Of a stretch of DNA of 34,329 nt, positions 10,103 through 27,201 are shown one piece after another. Source of the DNA: Hyphococcus sp. (GTDB taxonomy: Bacteria; Pseudomonadota; Alphaproteobacteria; Caulobacterales; Parvularculaceae); NCBI GenBank assembly GCA_021776315.1, contig JAJFGD010000235.1, forward strand, positions 1 through 34,329, read 5' to 3'. Made by a program: the position numbers and the translations under genes. The notes below the pieces were generated by a model, which worked only from the letters and a program-made list of their open reading frames with translations, was not told the DNA's origin and made no database searches. Every line of letters starts with the position of its first letter. The first letter of the stretch is position 1.

Positions 10103-10552
10103 TTACTCTTCGAGTAGGGCAAAAAGCTCAGCAAACTTCGTTTTTGCTTTGCCTACATGGCGGGCACTTTTTGCGTCTTCAAGATTAGGCGTGTGATCTC
10201 CAACAATAACCAAACTCACCATACCCATGCCGTAATGGGGCATGCATTTGACACCATAAACACCCGCTTGTGTGGCGTCGAAGACGACATCTTGGTTCAT
10301 CTTTCCCTTAAACCCTGTCGCACCTTCTGGAACCATTCCTTTGATGGTTTCGGCATTGTGACTCGGATCCGTGGCGACAAAACGGACCGTATCACCGACT
10401 TTTGCTTTCACGAGCTGAGGTTCAAACACCATAATTGATCCGTCGGTGCCTTTGTTCAGCATCTTCACAACAATCTCTTCAGCTGACGCCATGGTTGGGA
10501 TGCAAAGTAAAAGAGTTGAGGCCAAAATACTTTTAATAGAAAAAATTCGCAT
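10103..10552 (-). CDS. Pseudoazurin (periplasmic blue copper protein)
   Basis: Signal peptide, VVKMLNKGTDGSIMVFEPQLVKAKVGDTVRFV..DPSHNAETIKGMVP and YGVKCMPHYGMGMVSLVIVGD (type I Cu ligands H, C, H, M). Confidence 0.93.
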   Translation of the reverse strand: MRIFSIKSILASTLLLCIPTMASAEEIVVKMLNKGTDGSIMVFEPQLVKAKVGDTVRFVATDPSHNAETIKGMVPEGATGFKGKMNQDVVFDATQAGVYGVKCMPHYGMGMVSLVIVGDHTPNLEDAKSARHVGKAKTKFAELFALLEE

Positions 10553-10608: not shown

Positions 10609-10633
10609 AAAGATGTATTGTCAATACATCTTT
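10609..10633. promoter_or_regulatory. NsrR-like operator (perfect 12-1-12 palindrome)
   Basis: AAAGATGTATTG-T-CAATACATCTTT, perfect inverted repeat; resembles the NsrR consensus AAGATGYATTTnAAATRCATCTT; sits between pseudoazurin and the small-ORF/ccoS unit. Confidence 0.7.
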
Positions 10634-11216: not shown

Positions 11217-11999
11217 TTATTCATCGCCAAATGTCGACGCATAGGCGCGCCAAGATGCATGCGCAATTACCGGATATGTTACGATCAGACCAACGAAGAA
11301 GGTGGCAAAGCCGAACCCGATAAAGAGGGTTACAAGCGCTCCCCATAAAAGCATGGCAGCTTTGTTTTTCCAGGCAGTGGCCATGCTTTTGCCCATAGCT
11401 GTAAACGCGTCTGTTTTTCGATCAAGGAGCATGGGCAGGGAAAAAACGCTGATAGCGAAAGCAAAGGAGGCGAATAATGCGCCAACAATGGTGCCGGTTC
11501 CAAGCATGAACCAGCCGGTAGGGGTCGTAAACAAAATTGGAATGATCTGATCCCCACCTGGGAACGGGCGCAAGCCGAAGAACACCGCATAAATAAGGAC
11601 GGCCGAACGCATCCAAAGAAGCGCCAGAAGAGATAAGAGCACACCAACGAAAACAACTTGGCCGCCGGATGCGGGCTTAATGAAAACCATCTGCGCAAAT
11701 GTCGTTGATTTGCCTTCTTGTAGATTTTTTGATTTCAAATAGAGGCCCGTCGCAAACAATGGCCCTGCGATGACAAAAGCGGATAGCGCTGGAAGTAAGA
11801 AATAGTCTAGCCGCCAAAAATATAAACCAGCGACAATAACCGCCGAAAGCATAAACACAATAAAACCAGCGAATAGACTACTGCCGGGTTTGGCGGTAAA
11901 ATCTTGCCAACCGAGGGAAATCCATTTCAAGGGTTCTGACGCATTAATCCTTGGCGCTTCAAATTTGTTGGGCAGGGTTTCAGTTGCTTCCAAAGTCAT
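11217..11999 (-). CDS. DUF2189 domain integral membrane protein (copy 1)
   Basis: PLKWISLGWQDFTAKPGSSLFAGFIVFML, VYPVIAHASWRAYASTFGDE C-terminus; likely start MTLEATETLPNKF at 11999; paralogous to 29369-30136. Confidence 0.8.
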   Translation of the reverse strand: MTLEATETLPNKFEAPRINASEPLKWISLGWQDFTAKPGSSLFAGFIVFMLSAVIVAGLYFWRLDYFLLPALSAFVIAGPLFATGLYLKSKNLQEGKSTTFAQMVFIKPASGGQVVFVGVLLSLLALLWMRSAVLIYAVFFGLRPFPGGDQIIPILFTTPTGWFMLGTGTIVGALFASFAFAISVFSLPMLLDRKTDAFTAMGKSMATAWKNKAAMLLWGALVTLFIGFGFATFFVGLIVTYPVIAHASWRAYASTFGDE

Positions 12000-12027
12000 A
12001 ACGTCTAGTCCTTGATATCGTCGATGT

Positions 12028-12216
12028 TCAGCACGACGGCTTGGCAGCCTTAGAGCGATAGGCTTCATCAGTATCGTTCAACGCCACACAAGTTGGCTTT
12101 AATGAAAATGCGGCTTTTAGCAGTTGTGCGTTACCCATAGCCACAGCAATGAGAAAGAGTAAGGCACCGGCCCACAACACCCCAAATCGTTTAAACTGTT
12201 GTGCGAACCGCGCCAT
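12028..12216 (-). CDS. Small single-TM hypothetical protein downstream of ccoP
   Basis: MARFAQQFKRFGVLWAGALLFLIAVAMGNAQLLKAAFSLKPTCVALNDTDEAYRSKAAKPSC; starts 3 nt after the ccoP stop. Confidence 0.6.
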   Translation of the reverse strand: MARFAQQFKRFGVLWAGALLFLIAVAMGNAQLLKAAFSLKPTCVALNDTDEAYRSKAAKPSC

Positions 12217-12218
12217 GA

Positions 12219-13094
12219 TCAATCTTCACTCACTGTTTCGCTTAGCTGGGATACATACAGCGTTAAAAGCTTTAGGTCAGTGTCTGAAATGCGCCCATCC
12301 CAATGGGGCATATGTCCAGCGCGTCCATAATAGATTGTTTGGTATATTGACGGTTTATCGCCGCCATAGAGCCATACCGCATCTGTGAGGTTTGGTGCGC
12401 CGAGAAGCTGTTCACCTGTACCATCAATACCGTGACAGCTTGAGCAGTTTGTTTCGAACAATGCGGCGGCGGCGGTATGTTGTTGTTCGTTCTGCGTTGG
12501 CTCTGAAAAGGATGTGACATAATCCGTCAACATTGAAATTTCGTCGCGCGACAATATTTGCATTTCGCCATACGCCATCATTTGGGCGAAGCGCGTTTCA
12601 TCATGGCGGGAATTGATGCCACCTCGAACTGTTTGATAGATCTCGTCGACAGTGCCACCCCATAGCCAATCAGTATCGTTGAGCGTTGGGTATCCAGCAT
12701 TTCCAATGCCGCCAGATGCATGGCAAACGGAACAGTTATCTTCAAAAAGGACTTTTCCTGCGTCTTTTGCGACCTGCAATATCTGTTCGTTTCCGGAGAG
12801 TTCGGCAAGGTCATTTGACGCAACGATTGTCTCCCACGTACTGCGATCAACTTTACCAGCCGCAAGTGCTTCGTTGACTTGGTCCCGTTGGTCAATGCCA
12901 AGAATGCCCTTGGTGTAAGTACTGATCCCTGGCCATGCCGGAAGCAGTATCCATAGGACCACACAAATGGAGAACCCAATACCTAAAAACCAATAGACGG
13001 GTTTCGGTACCGGCGTGTTCAGTTCTTTGATACCGTCCCATTCGTGATCGGTCAGTTCTCTACCCGTATAGGGATCGATTTCGCGCTTGGTCAT
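12219..13094 (-). CDS. ccoP: cbb3-type cytochrome c oxidase subunit CcoP (diheme), operon 1
   Basis: DPYTGRELTDHEWDGIKELNTPVPKPVYW and two CxxCH motifs (CSVCH, CSSCH). Confidence 0.96.
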   Translation of the reverse strand: MTKREIDPYTGRELTDHEWDGIKELNTPVPKPVYWFLGIGFSICVVLWILLPAWPGISTYTKGILGIDQRDQVNEALAAGKVDRSTWETIVASNDLAELSGNEQILQVAKDAGKVLFEDNCSVCHASGGIGNAGYPTLNDTDWLWGGTVDEIYQTVRGGINSRHDETRFAQMMAYGEMQILSRDEISMLTDYVTSFSEPTQNEQQHTAAAALFETNCSSCHGIDGTGEQLLGAPNLTDAVWLYGGDKPSIYQTIYYGRAGHMPHWDGRISDTDLKLLTLYVSQLSETVSED

Positions 13095-13249
13095 TTCTCG
13101 TCCTGATCGTGAAAAATGCTTTTGGCAGCTCGGTCAAATTTTTCCTTGTTGGCCGGCCATAAGGCATAGGCTACGGCAATGCCGAAAAGGAAGATCAGAT
13201 AAAATAGACCCCAAGATTTTGAGAGCATGACAAAAAAATCATGTGTCAT
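13091..13249 (-). CDS. ccoQ: cbb3-type cytochrome c oxidase subunit CcoQ, operon 1
   Basis: MTHDFFVMLSKSWGLFYLIFLFGIAVAYALWPANKEKFDRAAKSIFHDQDEK between ccoO and ccoP; not in ORF track. Confidence 0.9.
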   Translation of the reverse strand: MTHDFFVMLSKSWGLFYLIFLFGIAVAYALWPANKEKFDRAAKSIFHDQDEK

Positions 13250-14004
13250 GAGTTATCCTCCTCGCTTGGCGTATCACTAGATGGCTCCACGCCCGGTGCA
13301 TCAGGTAAATCTGTTAGCTGTCCCAATATTTGAAGATAAGCGACTAACGCATCCATTTCGGTTAGCTTGCGCATATCCCCGTCAAAGTTTCGAACATTGG
13401 TCTCGGCACCATAACGATCATAAACGCCATCAGATAAATCGCCATCTGGATCGGCTTGGCCGATCGTATCTGCCGAGGCATTTTCAATCATTTCGTCTGT
13501 ATACGGGACCCCAACAGTGCGGAGTGCTCTCAAGTGACTTGCCATTTTGTCTGGCTGAACCTGAATGCGATCAAGAAATGCATAGTTGGGCATTTTCGAC
13601 GCCGGCACTAAAGAGCGCGGCGCGCGCAAATGCTGTGCTTGCCATTCATCCGAGTATTTTCCGCCAACGCGCGCAAGGTCGGGGCCGGTGCGCTTTGATC
13701 CCCAAAGCATCGGGTGATCATATTTCGACTCGACCGCAAGGGAGTAATGCCCGTAGCGCTCAACATCGTCACGTAAGGTTCTAATCATTTGGGAATGGCA
13801 GACGTAGCAGCCTTCACGAATATAGATGTTTCGGCCGGCTGTTTCGAGTGGTGTATAAAGCCGCATATCCGGATCGGCCTCGACCGTTTCATCAATGGTG
13901 AAAAGGGGCGCAATTTCAACAAAGCCGCCAATCGATGCAACCACGATGACACCGAGGACAAACGCGATGGAATTTCGTTCTAGTTTTTTGTGGACACCAA
14001 ACAT
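13246..14004 (-). CDS. ccoO: cbb3-type cytochrome c oxidase subunit CcoO (monoheme), operon 1
   Basis: [64 protein letters not shown]. Confidence 0.97.
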   Translation of the reverse strand: MFGVHKKLERNSIAFVLGVIVVASIGGFVEIAPLFTIDETVEADPDMRLYTPLETAGRNIYIREGCYVCHSQMIRTLRDDVERYGHYSLAVESKYDHPMLWGSKRTGPDLARVGGKYSDEWQAQHLRAPRSLVPASKMPNYAFLDRIQVQPDKMASHLRALRTVGVPYTDEMIENASADTIGQADPDGDLSDGVYDRYGAETNVRNFDGDMRKLTEMDALVAYLQILGQLTDLPDAPGVEPSSDTPSEEDNS

Positions 14005-14005
14005 G

Positions 14006-15640
14006 TTAAGCGGCTCCCTCTAAAACGCCATCCGGCGAGGTGCTGACGCGACCCACGATTTTGCTCGAACTGATCGTCTTCCAAACATTATAGGCGCAGA
14101 CAAGACCGCCCATTAAAAACAGAAGGCCGCCGACAGCGCGTGCAATATAGTAAGGATGCATGGCCTCTAGGGATTCAATAAAGGAATAGGTTAGCGTGCC
14201 ATTTTCGCTATATGTCCGCCACATGAGGCCTTGAATAATGCCCGAATTCCACATCGCGAAAACGTAAATGACGGTGCCTGCGAGGGCGAGCCAGAAATGA
14301 ACCTCCACCAATGCTGGTGAGTACATGCGTTCGCGTTTCCACAATTGCGGCACGACGGAATAGATCGCCCCAAATGTTATAAAGGCTACCCAACCAAGCG
14401 CCCCTGAATGTACATGACCAATCGTCCAATCCGTATAGTGGGACAATGAGTTCACTGGACGGATTGCGAGGAAAGAGCCTTCGAATGTTGAAAGGCCATA
14501 AAATACTGCCGCGACCATCATGAAACGCAAAGTGGCGTTATCTCTTACTTTGTCCCACGCGCCATTCAGGGTCAGCAAGGCATTCCCCGCCGAGGCCCAG
14601 GATGGTACTAGGAGTACGATTGAGAACGTCATGCCAAGCGTCTGCACCCAATGAGGTAACGCTGTATAATGTAGGTGGTGGGAACCAGCCCACATATACA
14701 TGAAAGTAATGCCCCAAAAACTGATAATCGACATCCGGTAAGAGAAAATGGGTCGGCCAGCCGCCTTGGGGAGATAGTAATACATCATCCCCAGGAAGCC
14801 TGCGGTGAGAAAGAACGCTACCGCATTATGCCCATACCACCATTGGGTCATGGCATCTTGAACGCCTGAAAATGCTGAATAGCTTTTGGTGTCGCCGAAT
14901 GAAACGGGTACAGCGAGATTGTTCACAATGTGGAGCAAGGCGACCACAACAATAAATGCAATATAATACCAGTTGGCCACATAGATGTGTTTTTCTTCGC
15001 GCCGCGCGAGGGTGTTCAGAAAAACAAAGAAATAGCCAACCCAGACAACTGTCAGCAAAATGTCCGCATACCATTCTGGTTCTGCATATTCCTTTGATTG
15101 GGTAACACCCAAGAAATAACCGGTTACGGCCAAAAGGCAGAATAGGTTGTAGCCTAGCAAAATAAAGATCGGCCCATAACGCCCGGGCAAAGAGGTCCGG
15201 CAAGTGCGTTGAACGACGTGAAACGATGTGGCCATCAAAGCATTGCCACCAAACCCAAATATGACGGCAGTGGTATGGGCGGGACGTATCCGGCCAAAAG
15301 ATGACCAAGCCGCATCAAATGTCAGATCTGGATAAGCGAGGAGCCAAGCAACCCAATCTCCGATAAAAAATCCAAAGATTGCCCACGCTATTGAAAGCAA
15401 GATCCCGAGCTTGATAGGCGTGTCGTAATAGACATCACGTGAATAGGGTTGAGCTTGGGGTTTGTTATAGTCTTTTGCAAAACCAAAAAACGCCAGGACA
15501 CCAAATGCAAAGAACATCGCGCCATGTGTCGTAAAGGCAGCAGATTGGCTGCTCACCATCATGACCACACCAATCAGGATGGCGACAAAACTGGTCCCAA
15601 TGGCGGCATCTCGTTCTGCGGGAGAAAAATCAAAGGTCAC
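14006..15640 (-). CDS. ccoN: cbb3-type cytochrome c oxidase catalytic subunit CcoN, operon 1
   Basis: [73 protein letters not shown]. Confidence 0.97.
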   Translation of the reverse strand: MTFDFSPAERDAAIGTSFVAILIGVVMMVSSQSAAFTTHGAMFFAFGVLAFFGFAKDYNKPQAQPYSRDVYYDTPIKLGILLSIAWAIFGFFIGDWVAWLLAYPDLTFDAAWSSFGRIRPAHTTAVIFGFGGNALMATSFHVVQRTCRTSLPGRYGPIFILLGYNLFCLLAVTGYFLGVTQSKEYAEPEWYADILLTVVWVGYFFVFLNTLARREEKHIYVANWYYIAFIVVVALLHIVNNLAVPVSFGDTKSYSAFSGVQDAMTQWWYGHNAVAFFLTAGFLGMMYYYLPKAAGRPIFSYRMSIISFWGITFMYMWAGSHHLHYTALPHWVQTLGMTFSIVLLVPSWASAGNALLTLNGAWDKVRDNATLRFMMVAAVFYGLSTFEGSFLAIRPVNSLSHYTDWTIGHVHSGALGWVAFITFGAIYSVVPQLWKRERMYSPALVEVHFWLALAGTVIYVFAMWNSGIIQGLMWRTYSENGTLTYSFIESLEAMHPYYIARAVGGLLFLMGGLVCAYNVWKTISSSKIVGRVSTSPDGVLEGAA

Positions 15641-16130: not shown

Positions 16131-16155
16131 AAAGAGGTATTGTAAATACATCTTT
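16131..16155. promoter_or_regulatory. NsrR-like operator upstream of the sNOR cluster
   Basis: AAAGAGGTATTG-T-AAATACATCTTT, 23/25 identical to the element at 10609-10633; overlaps a possible promoter (TTGACC 16107 - 17 nt - TAAAGA). Confidence 0.7.
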
Positions 16156-16169
16156 AAAGGTAAAATGCT

Positions 16170-16718
16170 GTGCAACAATTCGCGCTTTTGACAAGCTTAA
16201 TTCTCATATTCGGCGTTATTGCTGGGTTTTTGTATGTGGCAATCAATACTTCCCAGGCTGGAGACAAGGCCGAAATCCAACAATCGATAAATACTCTAAG
16301 AACAAAAACCCTTTGGCTTATGATCGGTGTAGGCGTGCCGCTTACCTTGGCGTTGGCTTATCGCTGGCCACATGCGCCTGAAGGGTTTCAAGGTGAGCCG
16401 ATTACGGTCTCAGCTGAAAGCGGGCAATGGTATTGGAATCTCAGCCAATTTGAACTGCCAGTTGGGACGCCCATCGTTTTCGAATTGACAACAGTCGATG
16501 TGAACCATGGCTTTGGTGTTTATGACGAAGAGTTTGAACTGGTCACTCAAGCCCAGGCCATGCCAGGTTACACCAACAAACTCAATTATGTATTTAAAAA
16601 ACCCGGCCTTTATACGGTTGCTTGCTTAGAATATTGCGGGGTCGCGCATCACGCGATGCTTGCTGAAATCGACGTGGTCGATCCTGTTACTTATGCCAAC
16701 AATCAATCAAACGAATAA
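16170..16718 (+). CDS. norS: Heme-copper oxidase subunit II with CuA site; probable sNOR subunit NorS
   Basis: ESGQWYWNLSQFELPVGTPIVFELTTVDVNHGFGVYD and complete CuA motif CLEYCGVAHHAM; TTG/GTG start at 16170. Confidence 0.82.
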   Translation: MQQFALLTSLILIFGVIAGFLYVAINTSQAGDKAEIQQSINTLRTKTLWLMIGVGVPLTLALAYRWPHAPEGFQGEPITVSAESGQWYWNLSQFELPVGTPIVFELTTVDVNHGFGVYDEEFELVTQAQAMPGYTNKLNYVFKKPGLYTVACLEYCGVAHHAMLAEIDVVDPVTYANNQSNE

Positions 16719-16730
16719 GGAATCCGCACG

Positions 16731-18194
16731 ATGTCGGAGAGCGACGTAATAATTGCGAAAGATCAAACAATGCCAACGGGCCAAGTCTCACTCATTGCAC
16801 GTTCTGCAATATTAATAGCGAGCCTCGTATTTGTGCTCATGATGGCGGTTGGGCTGCTTTTGCGTTCTGTACAAGGTGGTTTTGTGACCATCGCACCAGA
16901 TATGTTTTACAAACTCATGACACTACATGGGGTTGGTATGGTCGGCGCCGCTGGATTGGCTGGTTTTGCCGTCATGTGGTATTTTCTCAATAAATATGTT
17001 GCGCTTTCCAAAGCAATGTTTCTTGCATTTTTAGGGACGTTTCTTATTGGCGTCGTGGTCATTATTGGTTCGATAATGATTGGAGGCTTTGGCGGGGCTT
17101 GGACATTTCTTTATCCGCTGCCGGTTCAATCTGGCGGCGTTTGGGAAGCACAAGCGGCAATATTGTTTCTCGTCGGATTGCTTCTTATCGGCGTTGCTTT
17201 TCTGCTTGGCTATCTCGATGTGGGACGCGCGCTGATTAAAGAATATGGTAGCCTTGCAAAGTCGATCGGTTGGCCGGCTTTGTTTGGAAATGCAGAGGCA
17301 CCACCCCCAACCATTGTTGCTTCAACGGCGGTTACCATTGTGAATGTGATTGGTACAGTTGCCGGCGCTGCGATCATCTTGATGAGTATTTTTAATGCAA
17401 TCGCGCCAACATTTAGTGTTGATGCATTGCTTGCGAAAAACCTCACTTATTTCTTTGGGCATGTCTTTATCAATGCATCGATCTATATGACGGTGATGGC
17501 GGTTTATGAAATTGTGCCTCTCTATACTGGGCGTGCGTGGAAAAGCTCCAAGATCTTTCTCATCGGGTGGACAATCACTCTGTTTATGGTGATGGCGGTG
17601 TATCCCCATCATTTGTTTCAAGATTTAGCGATGCCCCCATGGCTGCTCGTCGCTGGCCAGATCGGTTCCTATGTTAGTGGAATTCCAGTAATCGCGATTA
17701 CAACATTGGCGCTGTTTGGATATTTGTTCAAAAGCGGCGCGCGCTGGGATTTGTCCCTATCCTTGTTGGTCTTGGGTGTTTTTGGCTGGGCTGGCGGTGT
17801 CATTCCCGCGATTATTGATGGGATTATTTCGGTCAACAAGGTTATGCACAATACTATGTGGGTGCCTGGCCATTTCCATTTCTATTTGTTGATTGGCATG
17901 GTTTCGATGGCTTTTGGGTTTATGGTTTGGATCGGCCGCCAAGGGACTGCGTCGGCATTTCGTGGCGTCGAGAAATTGAGCTTTGCTGCTTATGTCATCG
18001 GCGGATTGGGCTTGGTGGCAATGTTCCTTATTTCCGGTGCGAATAGCGTGCCGCGTCGCTGGGCTGAACATTTGGTTCAATGGCAAAGCTATAGTCAGCT
18101 TGCTACCGTCTTTGCTGTCATCACCGTTTTAGGGGCAATCGCCATGCTGTTTTATGGGATCGCCGGTGCCGCAAAGACCGCGACAAAGACTTGA
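16731..18194 (+). CDS. norY: Heme-copper oxidase superfamily subunit I; probable sNOR subunit NorY
   Basis: MTLHGVGMVGAAG, GHVFINASIY (Asn where oxidases carry the cross-linked Tyr), YPHHLFQD, HNTMWVPGHFHFYLL, SVPRRWAEH; order norS-norY-senC-orf1. Confidence 0.82.
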   Translation: MSESDVIIAKDQTMPTGQVSLIARSAILIASLVFVLMMAVGLLLRSVQGGFVTIAPDMFYKLMTLHGVGMVGAAGLAGFAVMWYFLNKYVALSKAMFLAFLGTFLIGVVVIIGSIMIGGFGGAWTFLYPLPVQSGGVWEAQAAILFLVGLLLIGVAFLLGYLDVGRALIKEYGSLAKSIGWPALFGNAEAPPPTIVASTAVTIVNVIGTVAGAAIILMSIFNAIAPTFSVDALLAKNLTYFFGHVFINASIYMTVMAVYEIVPLYTGRAWKSSKIFLIGWTITLFMVMAVYPHHLFQDLAMPPWLLVAGQIGSYVSGIPVIAITTLALFGYLFKSGARWDLSLSLLVLGVFGWAGGVIPAIIDGIISVNKVMHNTMWVPGHFHFYLLIGMVSMAFGFMVWIGRQGTASAFRGVEKLSFAAYVIGGLGLVAMFLISGANSVPRRWAEHLVQWQSYSQLATVFAVITVLGAIAMLFYGIAGAAKTATKT

Positions 18195-18204
18195 TGTAAA
18201 AGCC

Positions 18205-18816
18205 ATGATCAAAACACTTCTTGCCACGATTGGAATTTTGATGGTGGGTGTGAGCACAATTCACGCCAGCACTGATAGGTTTAGTGCGTTTACGGCAGAA
18301 GGTGCTCGACGTTATTCAGCCATCAATAATCCCAATTCTGTTTTGCCCATCCAGTTAACAACGCATACAGGGGAGGCGACTACATATTTTGGGAATAGTG
18401 ATCAAATCCTGGTGGTTGAGTTCATATTCACCCATTGCCCAGAGGTTTGTCAGACTTTGGGCCGATCGTTTTTCCAACTTCAAGAAAAAGTCCGCGCGAT
18501 TGGTATCGACGATCGGGTTCAGTTTGTCAGTGTTTCTTTCGATCCAGAATATGATCATGTCCCTGAGCTTGCGGCATTTGCTGAGCGTCACCAGGCGAGG
18601 TCTGAAATGTGGCGTGTTGCACGACCGCAAACAGATGATGACCTACAGTATCTCTTAAAGACGTTTGGTGTTGTTGTGATTGACGATCCGTTTTTGCGCT
18701 ATGTGCACAATGCTGGTCTACATTTTGTTTCACCGGCCGGTAATTTGGTGGCGATCTTAGACGCTGACGATGTTGAGGGTGGTATTGAATTGATTAAGGC
18801 CGCCCCATGGCTTTAG
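18205..18816 (+). CDS. senC: SCO1/SenC copper chaperone
   Basis: FTHCPEVCQTLGRSFFQLQ (CxxxC), VQFVSVSFDPEYD, YVHNAGLHFVSPAGNLV; start set at MIKTLLATIG (18205). Confidence 0.9.
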   Translation: MIKTLLATIGILMVGVSTIHASTDRFSAFTAEGARRYSAINNPNSVLPIQLTTHTGEATTYFGNSDQILVVEFIFTHCPEVCQTLGRSFFQLQEKVRAIGIDDRVQFVSVSFDPEYDHVPELAAFAERHQARSEMWRVARPQTDDDLQYLLKTFGVVVIDDPFLRYVHNAGLHFVSPAGNLVAILDADDVEGGIELIKAAPWL

Positions 18817-19451
18817 CGCGTATGGGGCATAACGCGTTTTTGATCGGCGGTTTTGCGCTGTGGTTATTTTTGGTTCTTCCGGGGACGACCGACATTTTAG
18901 AGGCAAACCTACCAAGCCATTTTCTGGTTCAATTACCACTATTGGCTTTGGTTGGTTGGCTTTTGGGATGCGATCCGCGCATTGGACGTGTTTTTCGAAC
19001 CGCTGACTGGAACCGTTATGGCATCACGGGGTTGGTGTTAGCGCTTTTGGCATTGCTTTTTTGGATGATCCCACGATCCCTTGATGCAAGCCTCATTGAT
19101 GGTTGCATGGCCGTCGCAAAATATTTCTCATTTCCACTTTTGGTCGGGTTGCCATTACGTTTAAGCTGGCCGGCAGCACCATTTTTTGTGAAAGGGTTTC
19201 TTCAAGCAAACCTTCTATCGATGATCGTGTTTCTCGCTTGGTTATATCACGCGGCTCCAGTGCAGCTTTGCAATAGCTATCTGCGGGAAGACCAACTCTT
19301 ACTCTCTCAATTTCTGATCAAGATATTTTTTGTCCTAAGCGTCATTTTTGCATTCAAACCAATATTCGGTTTTTCACCAACTAGAATTTTATCCCGAGTT
19401 TCTGAGCAATTCGGACAACATTTAGTAAGGTATCAAGATGGACATTCCTAA
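18807..19451 (+). CDS. Multi-TM membrane protein in the orf1 position of a norSY-senC-orf1 cluster
   Basis: Overlaps senC; repeated hydrophobic helices; position-based assignment. Confidence 0.7.
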   Translation: MALARMGHNAFLIGGFALWLFLVLPGTTDILEANLPSHFLVQLPLLALVGWLLGCDPRIGRVFRTADWNRYGITGLVLALLALLFWMIPRSLDASLIDGCMAVAKYFSFPLLVGLPLRLSWPAAPFFVKGFLQANLLSMIVFLAWLYHAAPVQLCNSYLREDQLLLSQFLIKIFFVLSVIFAFKPIFGFSPTRILSRVSEQFGQHLVRYQDGHS

Positions 19452-20244
19452 TACGAACCAACATTTCTCTGCCATCGCCAAGAAGAAAATTACGCATCTC
19501 ACATCTAACCCTATTGGGTTTTTTATCGCAGCCATGATGGCCGGCGCTTATGTTGGCGTCGGGATTATTCTTATTTTGAGTGTAGGTGAACATGCCGACC
19601 CCTCCGTCAGGACATTGGTGATGGGGGCAAGCTTTGGTATTGCTTTGACGCTTGTTATGTTTGCGGGCTCAGAGCTTTTTACTGGTTACACCATGTATAT
19701 GACCCAAGGTGTGTTGGGAAAAACCGTCACTCCGAGCCAAGCCGTGATGTCTTGGACCGTTGTTTGGGTCGGCAACCTTGTTGGGTGTCTCTTATTGGCC
19801 AGTATTGCGGTCGTCGGTGACATCAACATTGTTGGGGCTCATGGTGAACTTTTATTCAAACTGGCTGAAAAAAAAATGCATCTCGAGCCGCATCAAATGG
19901 TGGCGCGAGCAATGCTTTGTAATTGGTTGGTCTGTCTATCGATATGGACATCCGCACGAACCGACAATGATGTCGCAAAGATCATGCTTATCTTTTGGTG
20001 CCTGTTTGCGTTCATTGCGAGTGGGTTTGAGCATTCGGTTGCCAATATGACTGTATTCTCCTTGGCACTATTGGCCGATCATGGTGAGGCTATCAATATG
20101 GCTGGAGCGGCCAAAAGTCTTTTCTGGGTAACCCTGGGTAATACGCTCAGCGGGGTTTTCTTCCTGGCGGGCGGGTATTGGGCTGTTGGAAAAAAAACCG
20201 CCAGACACACCGGGAAGGCAGCCGTTATCGAACAAAGCGCCTAA
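19438..20244 (+). CDS. nirC: Formate/nitrite transporter (FNT) family, NirC-like
   Basis: NPIGFFIAAMMAGAYVGVGIIL, AGSELFTGYTMYMTQGVLGKTV, ARAMLCNWLVCLSIWTSART, SGFEHSVANM. Confidence 0.9.
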   Translation: MDIPNTNQHFSAIAKKKITHLTSNPIGFFIAAMMAGAYVGVGIILILSVGEHADPSVRTLVMGASFGIALTLVMFAGSELFTGYTMYMTQGVLGKTVTPSQAVMSWTVVWVGNLVGCLLLASIAVVGDINIVGAHGELLFKLAEKKMHLEPHQMVARAMLCNWLVCLSIWTSARTDNDVAKIMLIFWCLFAFIASGFEHSVANMTVFSLALLADHGEAINMAGAAKSLFWVTLGNTLSGVFFLAGGYWAVGKKTARHTGKAAVIEQSA

Positions 20245-21132: not shown

Positions 21133-21146
21133 TTGATCCAGATCAT
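21133..21146. promoter_or_regulatory. FNR-like box between ompW and hemN
   Basis: TTGAT-CCAG-ATCAT (9/10 to TTGAT-N4-ATCAA). Confidence 0.7.
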
Positions 21147-23703: not shown

Positions 23704-23717
23704 TTGATTTAGGTCAA
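23704..23717. promoter_or_regulatory. FNR box upstream of ccoN operon 2
   Basis: TTGAT-TTAG-GTCAA inside the larger dyad GTCTTGATTTAGGTCAAGAC (23701-23720), about 60 bp before the ccoN start. Confidence 0.85.
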
Positions 23718-23774: not shown

Positions 23775-25433
23775 ATGTCTGGAACACAAATGCAATCGCA
23801 AGCTAGCACTGACTTGGGTGGTGACCGCATGTTTGTTTGGGGCATGCTCATCATTCTCGCATTCTGGTCACTCTTCACGGTCGCGCGTTCTGCGGATCCT
23901 TTGATGGGGGCTCATGCGGCGCTTTTCCTCGGTGCATCGGTCATCGGGATATTTGCGATGATTGCTCATCGAACCTCTGGTTATGTGGCTGAAAGCGACT
24001 CATACGAAATGGGCGTCGTCAAAGCCGGTGTATTTGCTTCCGTATTCTGGGGGATCGCCGGATTTTTAGTCGGTGTGATTATCGCCGGACAATTGGCCTT
24101 TCCAAATCTTCTCTATTTTCCAGAATTGCCTTGGACGAGTTTTGGGCGGTTGAGACCTCTACACACCTCTGCAGTGATTTTTGCGTTTGGTGGCAATGTG
24201 TTGATCGCGACCTCATTTTACGTGGTACAGCGAACAAGCCGTGCGCGCTTATGGGGCGGTCTGACGCCATGGTTCGTATTCTGGGGCTATAATCTCTTTA
24301 TAGTTATCGCTGCGACTGGATATTTGATGGGGATCACTCAGTCGAAAGAATATGCGGAACCAGAATGGTATGCAGATCTTTGGCTAACAATTGTATGGGT
24401 TGCATATCTTTTCGTCTTTTTAGGAACACTTTTGAAGCGAAAAGAACCGCATATCTATGTCGCAAACTGGTTCTATTTAGCCTTTATCGTCACGATTGCG
24501 ATGTTGCACATTGTAAACAATCTCGCTGTGCCGGTGTCGTTGACCAGTTCGAAAAGTTACAGTCTCTTTGCCGGTGTGCAAGATGCGTTGACGCAATGGT
24601 GGTATGGTCACAATGCTGTTGGGTTCTTCCTGACTGCGGGCTTTCTTGCGATCATGTACTATTTTATTCCCAAGAAGGCGGAACGTCCGGTATATTCATA
24701 CCGTCTTTCCATTGTGCATTTCTGGTCACTAATCTTCATCTATATCTGGGCCGGTCCGCACCACCTTCATTATACGGCGCTGCCTGAATGGGCGCAGACG
24801 TTAGGTATGACTTTCTCAATCATGCTTTGGATGCCGTCATGGGGCGGTATGATTAATGGCTTGATGACCCTTTCGGGCGCGTGGGATAAGCTGCGCACAG
24901 ACCCCGTCTTGCGGATGATGGTGGTCTCCGTTGCGTTCTACGGCATGTCGACCTTTGAAGGGCCGCTCATGTCAATTCGGGCTGTGAATTCGCTATCTCA
25001 CTATACGGACTGGACAATCGGTCACGTTCATTCAGGTGCACTCGGGTGGGTCGGTTATATTTCCTTTGGTGCGCTCTATTGCTTAGTGCCTTGGCTTTGG
25101 AAACGAAAAGAACTTTATTCCCGACAACTTGTTGAGTGGCATTTCTGGATCTCTACGCTCGGCATTTTGCTCTATATTACATCCATGTGGGTGTCGGGAA
25201 TTATGCAAGGCATGATGTGGCGTGCTTATAACGAATTCGGTTTCCTCGAATACTCATTTGTTGAAACTGTCGAAGCCATGAACCCTTATTATATAATTCG
25301 GATGCTTGGCGGCGTTTTGTTTCTGATCGGTGCCTTTATCATGGCCTATAATCTATGGCGGACAGCACGGGGCGATGTCCGAGAAAAAGAATATGTACGC
25401 GACGCTAATATCGCTGCAATTCCGGCGGAGTAA
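23775..25433 (+). CDS. ccoN: cbb3-type cytochrome c oxidase catalytic subunit CcoN, operon 2
   Basis: [71 protein letters not shown]. Confidence 0.97.
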
Positions 25434-25442
25434 GGAAACACT

Positions 25443-26171
25443 ATGCTCGACCGTCATGAAATTCTTGAAAAGCGTGGGCTTCTTCTCAGCGTCGCAATTT
25501 TGGTTGTTGTTGCTATTGGTGGCATCGTGGAAATCGCACCGCTTTTTTATCTCGAGTCAACAATCGAGAAAGTAAAGGGCGTACGGCCATATTCACCGCT
25601 AGAGCTTGCAGGCAGAAATATCTACCTTCGCGAAGGCTGCTATACTTGCCATTCCCAAATGGTACGACCGCTTCGCGACGAGGTTGAACGCTACGGACAT
25701 TATTCCCTCGCTGCTGAGAGTATGTATGACCACCCTTTCCAATGGGGATCGAAGCGTACTGGCCCAGATCTCGCGCGCGTAGGCGGGAAATATTCAGATG
25801 CCTGGCATCAACAGCACCTTGTTGATCCAAGAAGTGTCGTACCCGAATCTGTCATGCCGCCATATGCTATGTTGAATGAGCGTGCGCTTGACTATTCGCA
25901 AGTCGAGGCCTGGCTAAAAGCCAACCGGGTCGTCGGCGTGCCTTATACAGATGAGATGATAGAGAACGCGAAAAATGACTTGGAAGCCCAGGTCGACCCA
26001 TTCTCAGAAATCTATGACGATTTTATTGCGCGATACCCGAAAGCCCAGATCCGGGAATTTGATGGCGATCCGCGAAAAATCACAGAGATGGATGCAATGA
26101 TTGCCTATCTCCAGGTGCTGGGCACCATGGTCGATTTCTCGACTTATGAAGCTGAAGAAAATTACCGGTGA
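25443..26171 (+). CDS. ccoO: cbb3-type cytochrome c oxidase subunit CcoO, operon 2
   Basis: [64 protein letters not shown]. Confidence 0.97.
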
Positions 26172-26177
26172 TCCGAG

Positions 26178-26342
26178 ATGTATGAAACGCTTTCAAGTTT
26201 TGCTCAGACATGGGGTTTATTGCTGTTCATTCTCGCCTTCGGGTTAGTGCTTATTTATGCGCTTAGTCCCCGAAATCAGGGCAAGTTCGATAAAGCAAAG
26301 CAAATACCACTAAACGACGAGGATGATGCGCATGTCGGATAA
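26178..26342 (+). CDS. ccoQ: cbb3-type cytochrome c oxidase subunit CcoQ, operon 2
   Basis: MYETLSSFAQTWGLLLFILAFGLVLIYALSPRNQGKFDKAKQIPLNDEDDAHVG; not in ORF track. Confidence 0.9.
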   Translation: MYETLSSFAQTWGLLLFILAFGLVLIYALSPRNQGKFDKAKQIPLNDEDDAHVG

Positions 26343-27201
26343 GGAAATTGATCAGCCGACCGGCGTAGAAACTACCGGCCATGAGTGGGACGGAATCAAA
26401 GAACTCAACAACCCATTGCCGCGATGGTGGTTGATCATTCTCTGGATCTCTATCGTGTGGTCGGTTGTGTATTGGATTTTAATGCCTTCATGGCCCGGAA
26501 TTTCAGGTCACTTCGCGGGTATACGGGGACATTCAGACCGAGAAAATGTTGCTATTGCTATCTCTGCATTGGAGACAGAGCGCAGTGCGCAGATGCAACA
26601 GTTGAAGAGCGTCTCGTCCATTAATGATATCGAAAGTGATCCCCAGCTTTTGCAATTTGTGTTGGAGGCCGGAGAATCAATGTTTGGCGACAATTGCGCG
26701 ACATGTCACGGTGCAGGCGGGCAGGGCTTTAAAGGATATCCAGCACTTGTTGACGACGCTTGGTTGTGGGGCGGTACGCTTGATAACATTAGCAAGACCT
26801 TGCACCACGGTATTCGATCGACACATCCTGAATCCCGACTGAGTGTAATGCAGGCTTATGGTGAACTCGGCGTGTTTAATGGGGACCAGATCAATGATAT
26901 GGTCGAGTATGTGGTCAATTTGTCAGGGCGCGATGCAAACGCGGATGCGGTGGCCCGTGCGACACCACTATACCAACAACAATGCGTCAGTTGTCACGGT
27001 GTCGACGGGACCGGAGATCAGACTCAAGGTGCACCTAATTTGACTGATGCAATCTGGTTATATGGCGGTGAGCGTAGCGAGATTTATGAGACGATTAAAA
27101 ATGGTCGCGAAGGCGTCATGCCGCATTGGACTGATCGCTTGACTGATGAACAAATAACCGCGCTTGCTGTTTATGTTCATTCACTTGGTGGTGGCGAGTA
27201 A
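26332..27201 (+). CDS. ccoP: cbb3-type cytochrome c oxidase subunit CcoP (diheme), operon 2
   Basis: EIDQPTGVETTGHEWDGIKELNNPLPRWW and CATCH, CVSCH heme motifs; start MSDKEID at 26332. Confidence 0.96.
   Translation: MSDKEIDQPTGVETTGHEWDGIKELNNPLPRWWLIILWISIVWSVVYWILMPSWPGISGHFAGIRGHSDRENVAIAISALETERSAQMQQLKSVSSINDIESDPQLLQFVLEAGESMFGDNCATCHGAGGQGFKGYPALVDDAWLWGGTLDNISKTLHHGIRSTHPESRLSVMQAYGELGVFNGDQINDMVEYVVNLSGRDANADAVARATPLYQQQCVSCHGVDGTGDQTQGAPNLTDAIWLYGGERSEIYETIKNGREGVMPHWTDRLTDEQITALAVYVHSLGGGE

Follow-up and report, generated by a model that had tools for sequence, protein, structure and literature searches.

A predicted sNOR-type nitric oxide reductase operon with a NirC-type channel and NsrR-type operators in Hyphococcus sp.

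Introduction

The norSY-senC-orf1 gene cluster, which encodes an sNOR, has been described from ammonia-oxidizing bacteria and is represented, for example, by NE0683-86 of Nitrosomonas europaea (PMC4940428). Whether sNOR acts on NO or on O2 is a debated question. No biochemically characterised member was found in the sources consulted, which counts against the reading as NO reductase, and transcript data from N. europaea have been interpreted as indicating a high-affinity O2 reductase (PMC6967387). Since annotation pipelines file sNOR as cytochrome oxidase, the reduction of NO to the greenhouse gas N2O may go uncounted in many genomes; the scale of the possible omission is indicated by 395 relatives found in one scan of GTDB genomes. 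The cluster type itself is already known, and the locus from Hyphococcus sp. described here, which helps to test the substrate question, adds a pair of operators, a link to pseudoazurin, a nar context and a family-wide linkage to a channel and a regulator.

Genome and Gene Cluster

The analysed stretch of DNA (the window) is the entire contig C152 of 34,329 bp. It belongs to a 3.3-Mb draft assembly of 275 contigs with a completeness of 95% and a contamination of 3.4%, so that all gene absences reported below are provisional. Five plus-strand genes, norS, norY, senC, orf1 and a gene for an FNT channel, are arranged head to tail at 16170-20244 (Table 1), with overlaps of 10 bp between senC and orf1 and of 14 bp between orf1 and the FNT gene. 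An earlier note, made from the bare sequence, had proposed this order together with the overlapping FNT gene, and all five reading frames were confirmed. The senC frame is already open from an ATG at 18154, inside norY, but the ATG at 18205 is the more likely start because a signal-like N-terminus results.

Table 1. Features of the norSY operon and of the pseudoazurin locus in the window.
Feature	Position	Strand	Description
norS	16170..16718	+	CuA subunit II; GTG start; two hydrophobic segments near the N-terminus
norY	16731..18194	+	Heme-copper subunit I; active-site Tyr replaced by Asn248
senC	18205..18816	+	SCO/SenC copper chaperone with CPEVC
orf1	18807..19451	+	Conserved polytopic membrane protein; possible distant CtaG-like copper-centre assembly factor
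FNT channel, NirC type	19438..20244	+	Pfam Form_Nir_trans; PDB matches
Pseudoazurin	10103..10552	-	TIGR02375, 155 bits (cut-off 109.85)
NsrR-type operator at norS	16131..16155		AAAGAGGTATTGTAAATACATCTTT
Second NsrR-type operator	10609..10633		AAAGATGTATTGTCAATACATCTTT; near-perfect palindrome

The gene order is not due to chance, since dozens of further genomes share it. After removal of near-copies at 85% NorY identity, 48 neighbourhoods extended far enough on both sides, and NorS was recognised in 46, SenC in 42 and orf1 in 44 of them; here and below, counts from this set span related genomes and do not represent independent events. Pfam assigned COX2, COX1, SCO1-SenC and Form_Nir_trans to the respective proteins and no accepted family to orf1, and none of the five scored above an NCBIfam cut-off. 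These missing matches probably account for the generic oxidase names carried by homologues: those of Ruegeria pomeroyi and Thermomicrobium are annotated as "cbb3-type cytochrome c oxidase subunit I", which bears out the earlier expectation that pipelines would label such genes as oxidase subunits.

Active Sites and Phylogeny of NorS and NorY

The CuA motif C-x3-C-x3-H-x2-M is intact in NorS (CLEYCGVAHHAM) and present in 57/57 homologous loci checked. NorY keeps all heme and CuB histidines (H66, H244, H293, H294, H381, and H383). O2 reductases of the A and B families carry a cross-linked Tyr four residues past the first CuB His. At this position in helix VI (H244 +4), Tyr is found in the references for A and B oxidases and Glu in those for cNOR, and NorY has Asn248, a residue invariant in 66/66 aligned homologues including that of Thermomicrobium (33% identity). 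The absence of the oxidase Tyr that had been read from the sequence is thus real, and NorY equally lacks the NorB-type site with a helix VI Glu by which cNOR and qNOR are recognised, in a comparison that covered cNOR references. An AlphaFold model of NorY (pLDDT 87.5) has the heme-copper oxidase fold, with a TM score of about 0.8 against oxidases of A type and of 0.74 against those of ba3 type; this predicted structure backs the fold and says nothing on the substrate.

The best 80 of the 395 relatives, two of them from Nitrosomonas, were retrieved. A quick tree was calculated with cNOR and oxidases of the A, B, and C families as references, among which the A and B sequences were few and long-branched, and without bNOR, eNOR, gNOR, and qNOR. 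All sNOR sequences, including NorY of the window and of Nitrosomonas, fell on one side of a branch with an SH-aLRT support of 99, apart from the A, B, C, and cNOR references; within this clade the window's NorY grouped with alphaproteobacterial sequences and Nitrosomonas belonged to the other main part. In this sampling the tree shows that NorY belongs to the sNOR clade and does not settle the branching order of the families. The phylogenetic check suggested in the earlier note therefore came out in favour of sNOR identity, with NorY grouping with the Nitrosomonas sNORs and outside the A- and B-family oxidases. Clade membership with the ammonia-oxidizer NorY and the lack of the helix VI Tyr are accompanied by a CuA subunit II encoded upstream and by senC and orf1 downstream. 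The distribution of the cluster is patchy, since matches at E <= 1e-20 were obtained in 3/299 genomes from the order to which the window belongs (including its own genome) and in 6/398 genomes of a phylum sample.

Operators, Rrf2 Regulators, and Pseudoazurin

The published NsrR palindrome has the form gATGyAT-N5-ATrCATc (PMC1274295). Two sites of this type, absent from the earlier note, as was the linkage to Rrf2 genes, occur in the window (16131-16155 and 10609-10633). The stretch described in the note begins at the first coordinate of the former. The norS site directly precedes the ribosome-binding region that belongs to the norS start codon and agrees with the consensus at 13/14 fixed positions (16134-16152); the second is located 57 bp ahead of the start codon of the pseudoazurin gene and agrees at 14/14 (10612-10630). 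Across the 3.3-Mb genome these are the only sites with <=1 mismatch to the 23-bp form, and the sole match stronger than the norS operator is the pseudoazurin site 5.5 kb away. A third site with three mismatches lies between an Rrf2 gene on contig C91 and its divergent neighbour. A fourth operator-like site (C92:13779), located inside a long coding frame resembling cobT, was rejected as a chance match.

Within the window alone, 15/100 shuffles yielded two sites at <=2 mismatches. As a bare palindrome the putative norS operator is unremarkable: the best inverted repeat in the region (9/11, p=0.07) lay elsewhere, and its identification rests on the consensus match. Because the bare palindrome did not single out the operator, a consensus-based test was applied to the other loci. 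The motif was found with <=2 mismatches upstream of norS in 23/56 loci, compared with a mean of 0.36 (maximum 3) in shuffled sequences and of 0.70 (maximum 3) in random windows from the same loci. A sigma-70 scan returned no promoter-like site on the plus strand at norS.

In the window no Rrf2 gene adjoins the norS cluster. The NsrR/RirA-like Rrf2 gene on contig C91 (L115:4909-5801), whose divergent promoter carries the weaker operator copy, overlaps a gene for a bacterial-like globin. Its product scores 143.3 bits against RirA and 135.9 against NsrR, both below cut-off, and has the Cys spacing C-x7-C-x5-C. These scores and this spacing could mean that the protein acting at the operators is a RirA-like member of the Rrf2 family that responds to iron, and that the operon belongs to an iron or FeS response. 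We regard this as quite improbable, as the sites match 13-14 of the 14 positions in the published NsrR palindrome, they lie at the genes for a putative NO reductase and a pseudoazurin, the Rrf2 gene of the genome adjoins a globin gene, and the Rrf2 protein encoded next to norS in another locus (L017) scores best against NsrR. From the sites and their targets we infer that NO is the signal to which the norS operator responds.

Pseudoazurins give electrons to periplasmic nitrogen-oxide reductases. The pseudoazurin of the window is a candidate co-regulated electron donor to NorS, because its promoter region carries an NsrR-type operator. None of the other 47 neighbourhoods has a pseudoazurin gene near norSY, which counts against this assignment and the functional reading built on it; a cytochrome c550-like gene is present in six of them.

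Nitrogen and Respiratory Genes

The genome encodes a NarG (2198 bits; cut-off 1084) with an MFS-type gene upstream in its cluster, whereas NirK above cut-off, NirS, NosZ, NirB, and any other NOR were not detected in the draft contigs. Weak matches to NirK on contig C222 (43 bits; cut-off 296) and to NirS on contig C57 (28 bits; a short propeller fragment) were rejected. The sole NIR_SIR protein, a siroheme-type protein of 563 aa on contig C54 (L110:667-2355), scored below every NCBIfam nitrite and sulfite reductase cut-off and is not NirB. The earlier statement that a local denitrification pathway is lacking thus provisionally holds genome-wide as far as NirK, NirS, NosZ, and other NORs are concerned, but has to be amended for the presence of NarG. 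Four COX1-family proteins were found, one of A type, two of cbb3 type, and NorY, which is the sole candidate NOR detected. By its gene content, the genome looks like that of a nitrate-to-nitrite reducer with an NO reductase.

Two cbb3 oxidase operons (11217-15640 and 23775-27201) flank the sNOR operon. Genes for DUF2189-type membrane proteins and for an FNR-type regulator (22671) also lie in this region, as does a radical SAM gene of the hemN-like kind (21150), and the whole is a micro-oxic respiration island. The window contains five FNR-box-like sites where 2.2 are expected, and two of these, each with one mismatch, are located just upstream of the hemN-like gene (21133-21146) and of the second ccoN (23704-23717). 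None of the FNR-type boxes detected lies upstream of norS.

This setting bears on the main alternative, that NorSY serves as a terminal O2 reductase of high affinity under low oxygen and high NO and is not primarily an NO reductase. In C-family oxidases a helix VII Tyr fills in for the helix VI Tyr, and NorY has three invariant tyrosines (Tyr252, Tyr259, and Tyr265), one of which may replace the missing residue. The position between two cbb3 operons with an FNR-type regulator nearby and the oxidase fold of the NorY model are likewise compatible with O2 reduction, which has been proposed for N. europaea, where a 2.7- to 10.8-fold induction was observed under O2 limitation (PMC6967387). Nevertheless, every homologue has Asn in the place of the Tyr that A and B oxidases carry in helix VI, the NsrR-type operators and adjacent Rrf2 genes suggest NO rather than O2 as the signal, and FNR-type boxes were found upstream of the hemN-like gene and of the second cbb3 operon and not of norS. 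We consider O2 reduction as the primary function unlikely, and NO reduction the best-supported and probable one.

The FNT Channel and orf1

The best PDB match of the FNT protein was NirC (4fc4, 228 bits), followed by HSC (3tdo, 176 bits) and FocA (67 bits); NirC was also its best NCBIfam match (258.7 bits), below the cut-off of 293. An FNT gene adjoins norSY in 25/48 dereplicated neighbourhoods and is absent from 23/48, so the coupling of a channel to norSY claimed for this one locus is a family-wide linkage. Rrf2/NsrR-type regulator genes adjoin the cluster in 29/48, and FNT, HPP, or Rrf2 genes occur in 37/48. The FNT gene is mostly located downstream on the same strand; in four cases it lies divergently upstream, and two have it elsewhere. 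Its place is taken by an HPP gene in loci of the Mariprofundus type and in a single locus from Nitrosomonadales, and a plant HPP protein has been reported to be a nitrite transporter (PMC4137279). A Rhodocyclales locus (L097) carries both, with HPP upstream and FNT downstream of norY. No paper on a linkage of FNT to norSY was found in a search that fell short of most subscription journals.

The channel gene could also be a passenger that came to adjoin norSY through a shared regulon or by hitch-hiking on a micro-oxic respiration island, and that has no working link to NorSY. Its absence from nearly half of the neighbourhoods, about 12 switches between presence and absence along the NorY tree, and the occurrence of cbb3 genes at the cluster in 8/48 neighbourhoods would fit such a history. 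It appears rather doubtful given that the FNT homologues found all lie within 1.7 kb of norY, in four different arrangements, that an FNT gene also accompanies the Thermomicrobium norY at 33% NorY identity, and that an HPP gene substitutes for it in the loci mentioned above.

Six residues of orf1 (W86, P89, K105, C155, Y158, and Q163) are invariant across 58 aligned members. Pfam and NCBIfam offered no accepted family; 13/58 members touched DUF1404 (best 4e-6). Its structure model is confident (pLDDT 92) and had no match in the PDB. Comparison with a single CtaG gave nothing (2% probability), whereas a four-sequence CtaG profile (Caa3_CtaG) gave a collinear but weak match (39.5%), and in Thermomicrobium a gene annotated as cytochrome c oxidase assembly protein stands in the same row. 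The weak profile match and the Thermomicrobium gene suggest, as a lead only, a role of orf1 in copper-centre assembly.

Proposed Function and Comparison with Known Systems

Gene content, ligand sets, clade membership, and operator sequences are direct observations, and on this basis the operon likely encodes an sNOR-type NO reductase together with copper-loading machinery and a nitrite channel. The best reading of its role is detoxification of NO and nitrite during incomplete nitrate respiration, with a pseudoazurin or cytochrome c feeding the sNOR. Cytoplasmic NarG would produce nitrite, and NO would arise as a by-product or come from neighbouring organisms. A repressor of the Rrf2/NsrR type, with its gene in another part of the genome, would free the norS and pseudoazurin operators once its FeS cluster meets NO. 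Electrons from pseudoazurin or a cytochrome c would then enter NorS at CuA and travel to the heme/CuB site of NorY. There, 2 NO would be converted into N2O in the absence of the Tyr in helix VI with which A and B oxidases cleave O-O. SenC, and probably orf1 too, would load copper into CuA and CuB. The NirC-type channel would carry nitrite through the membrane, most probably as export and not import, as no reductase was detected for the cytoplasmic nitrite made by NarG.

More tentatively, with the chances somewhat below even, sNOR and a dedicated nitrite channel may form one unit under an NO-sensing repressor in Pseudomonadota and beyond, with the unrelated nitrite transporters FNT and HPP interchangeable in an NO/nitrite detoxification module and orf1 acting in copper-centre assembly in the manner of CtaG. 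Independent genomic evidence in favour of NO as the sNOR substrate comes from the operator, from the NO-type repressor gene in the neighbourhood, and from the nitrite channel, and the question could be tested in the culturable R. pomeroyi.

The operon shares its gene order, the CuA subunit II, and the Tyr-less subunit I with the sNOR cluster of the N. europaea type, and its NorY belongs to the same clade at ~49% identity to Nitrosomonas NorY. Unlike in Nitrosomonas, NirK and cNOR were not detected in the window's genome, and the FNT gene, which is co-directional here, is located downstream on the opposite strand in both Nitrosomonas loci. The nearest solved sequence to NorY is the B-family ba3 oxidase of Thermus thermophilus, which shares the heme and CuB histidines but has Tyr in place of Asn248 and is about 18% identical in the fold alignment. 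The FNT protein has the motif SGxEHSVANMT in common with Salmonella NirC (4fc4); unlike the latter, it closes an operon of the NO-reductase type, in a genome where nirBD was not detected. On a plasmid of Thermomicrobium roseum, a member of a different phylum whose NorY is about 33% identical to that of the window, genes for subunit II, a Tyr-less subunit I, an FNT channel, and a CtaG-type protein stand in a row (L121:5336-9130). The megaplasmid of R. pomeroyi DSS-3 carries Rrf2-norS-norY-SCO-orf1-FNT (SPO_RS20740-20765) in the order of the window, with cbb3 and DUF2189 genes adjoining as well. It differs in its adjacent Rrf2 gene and in a cytochrome c gene that follows FNT, whereas the Hyphococcus operon has an operator without an adjacent Rrf2 gene and is accompanied by a pseudoazurin gene with an operator of its own.
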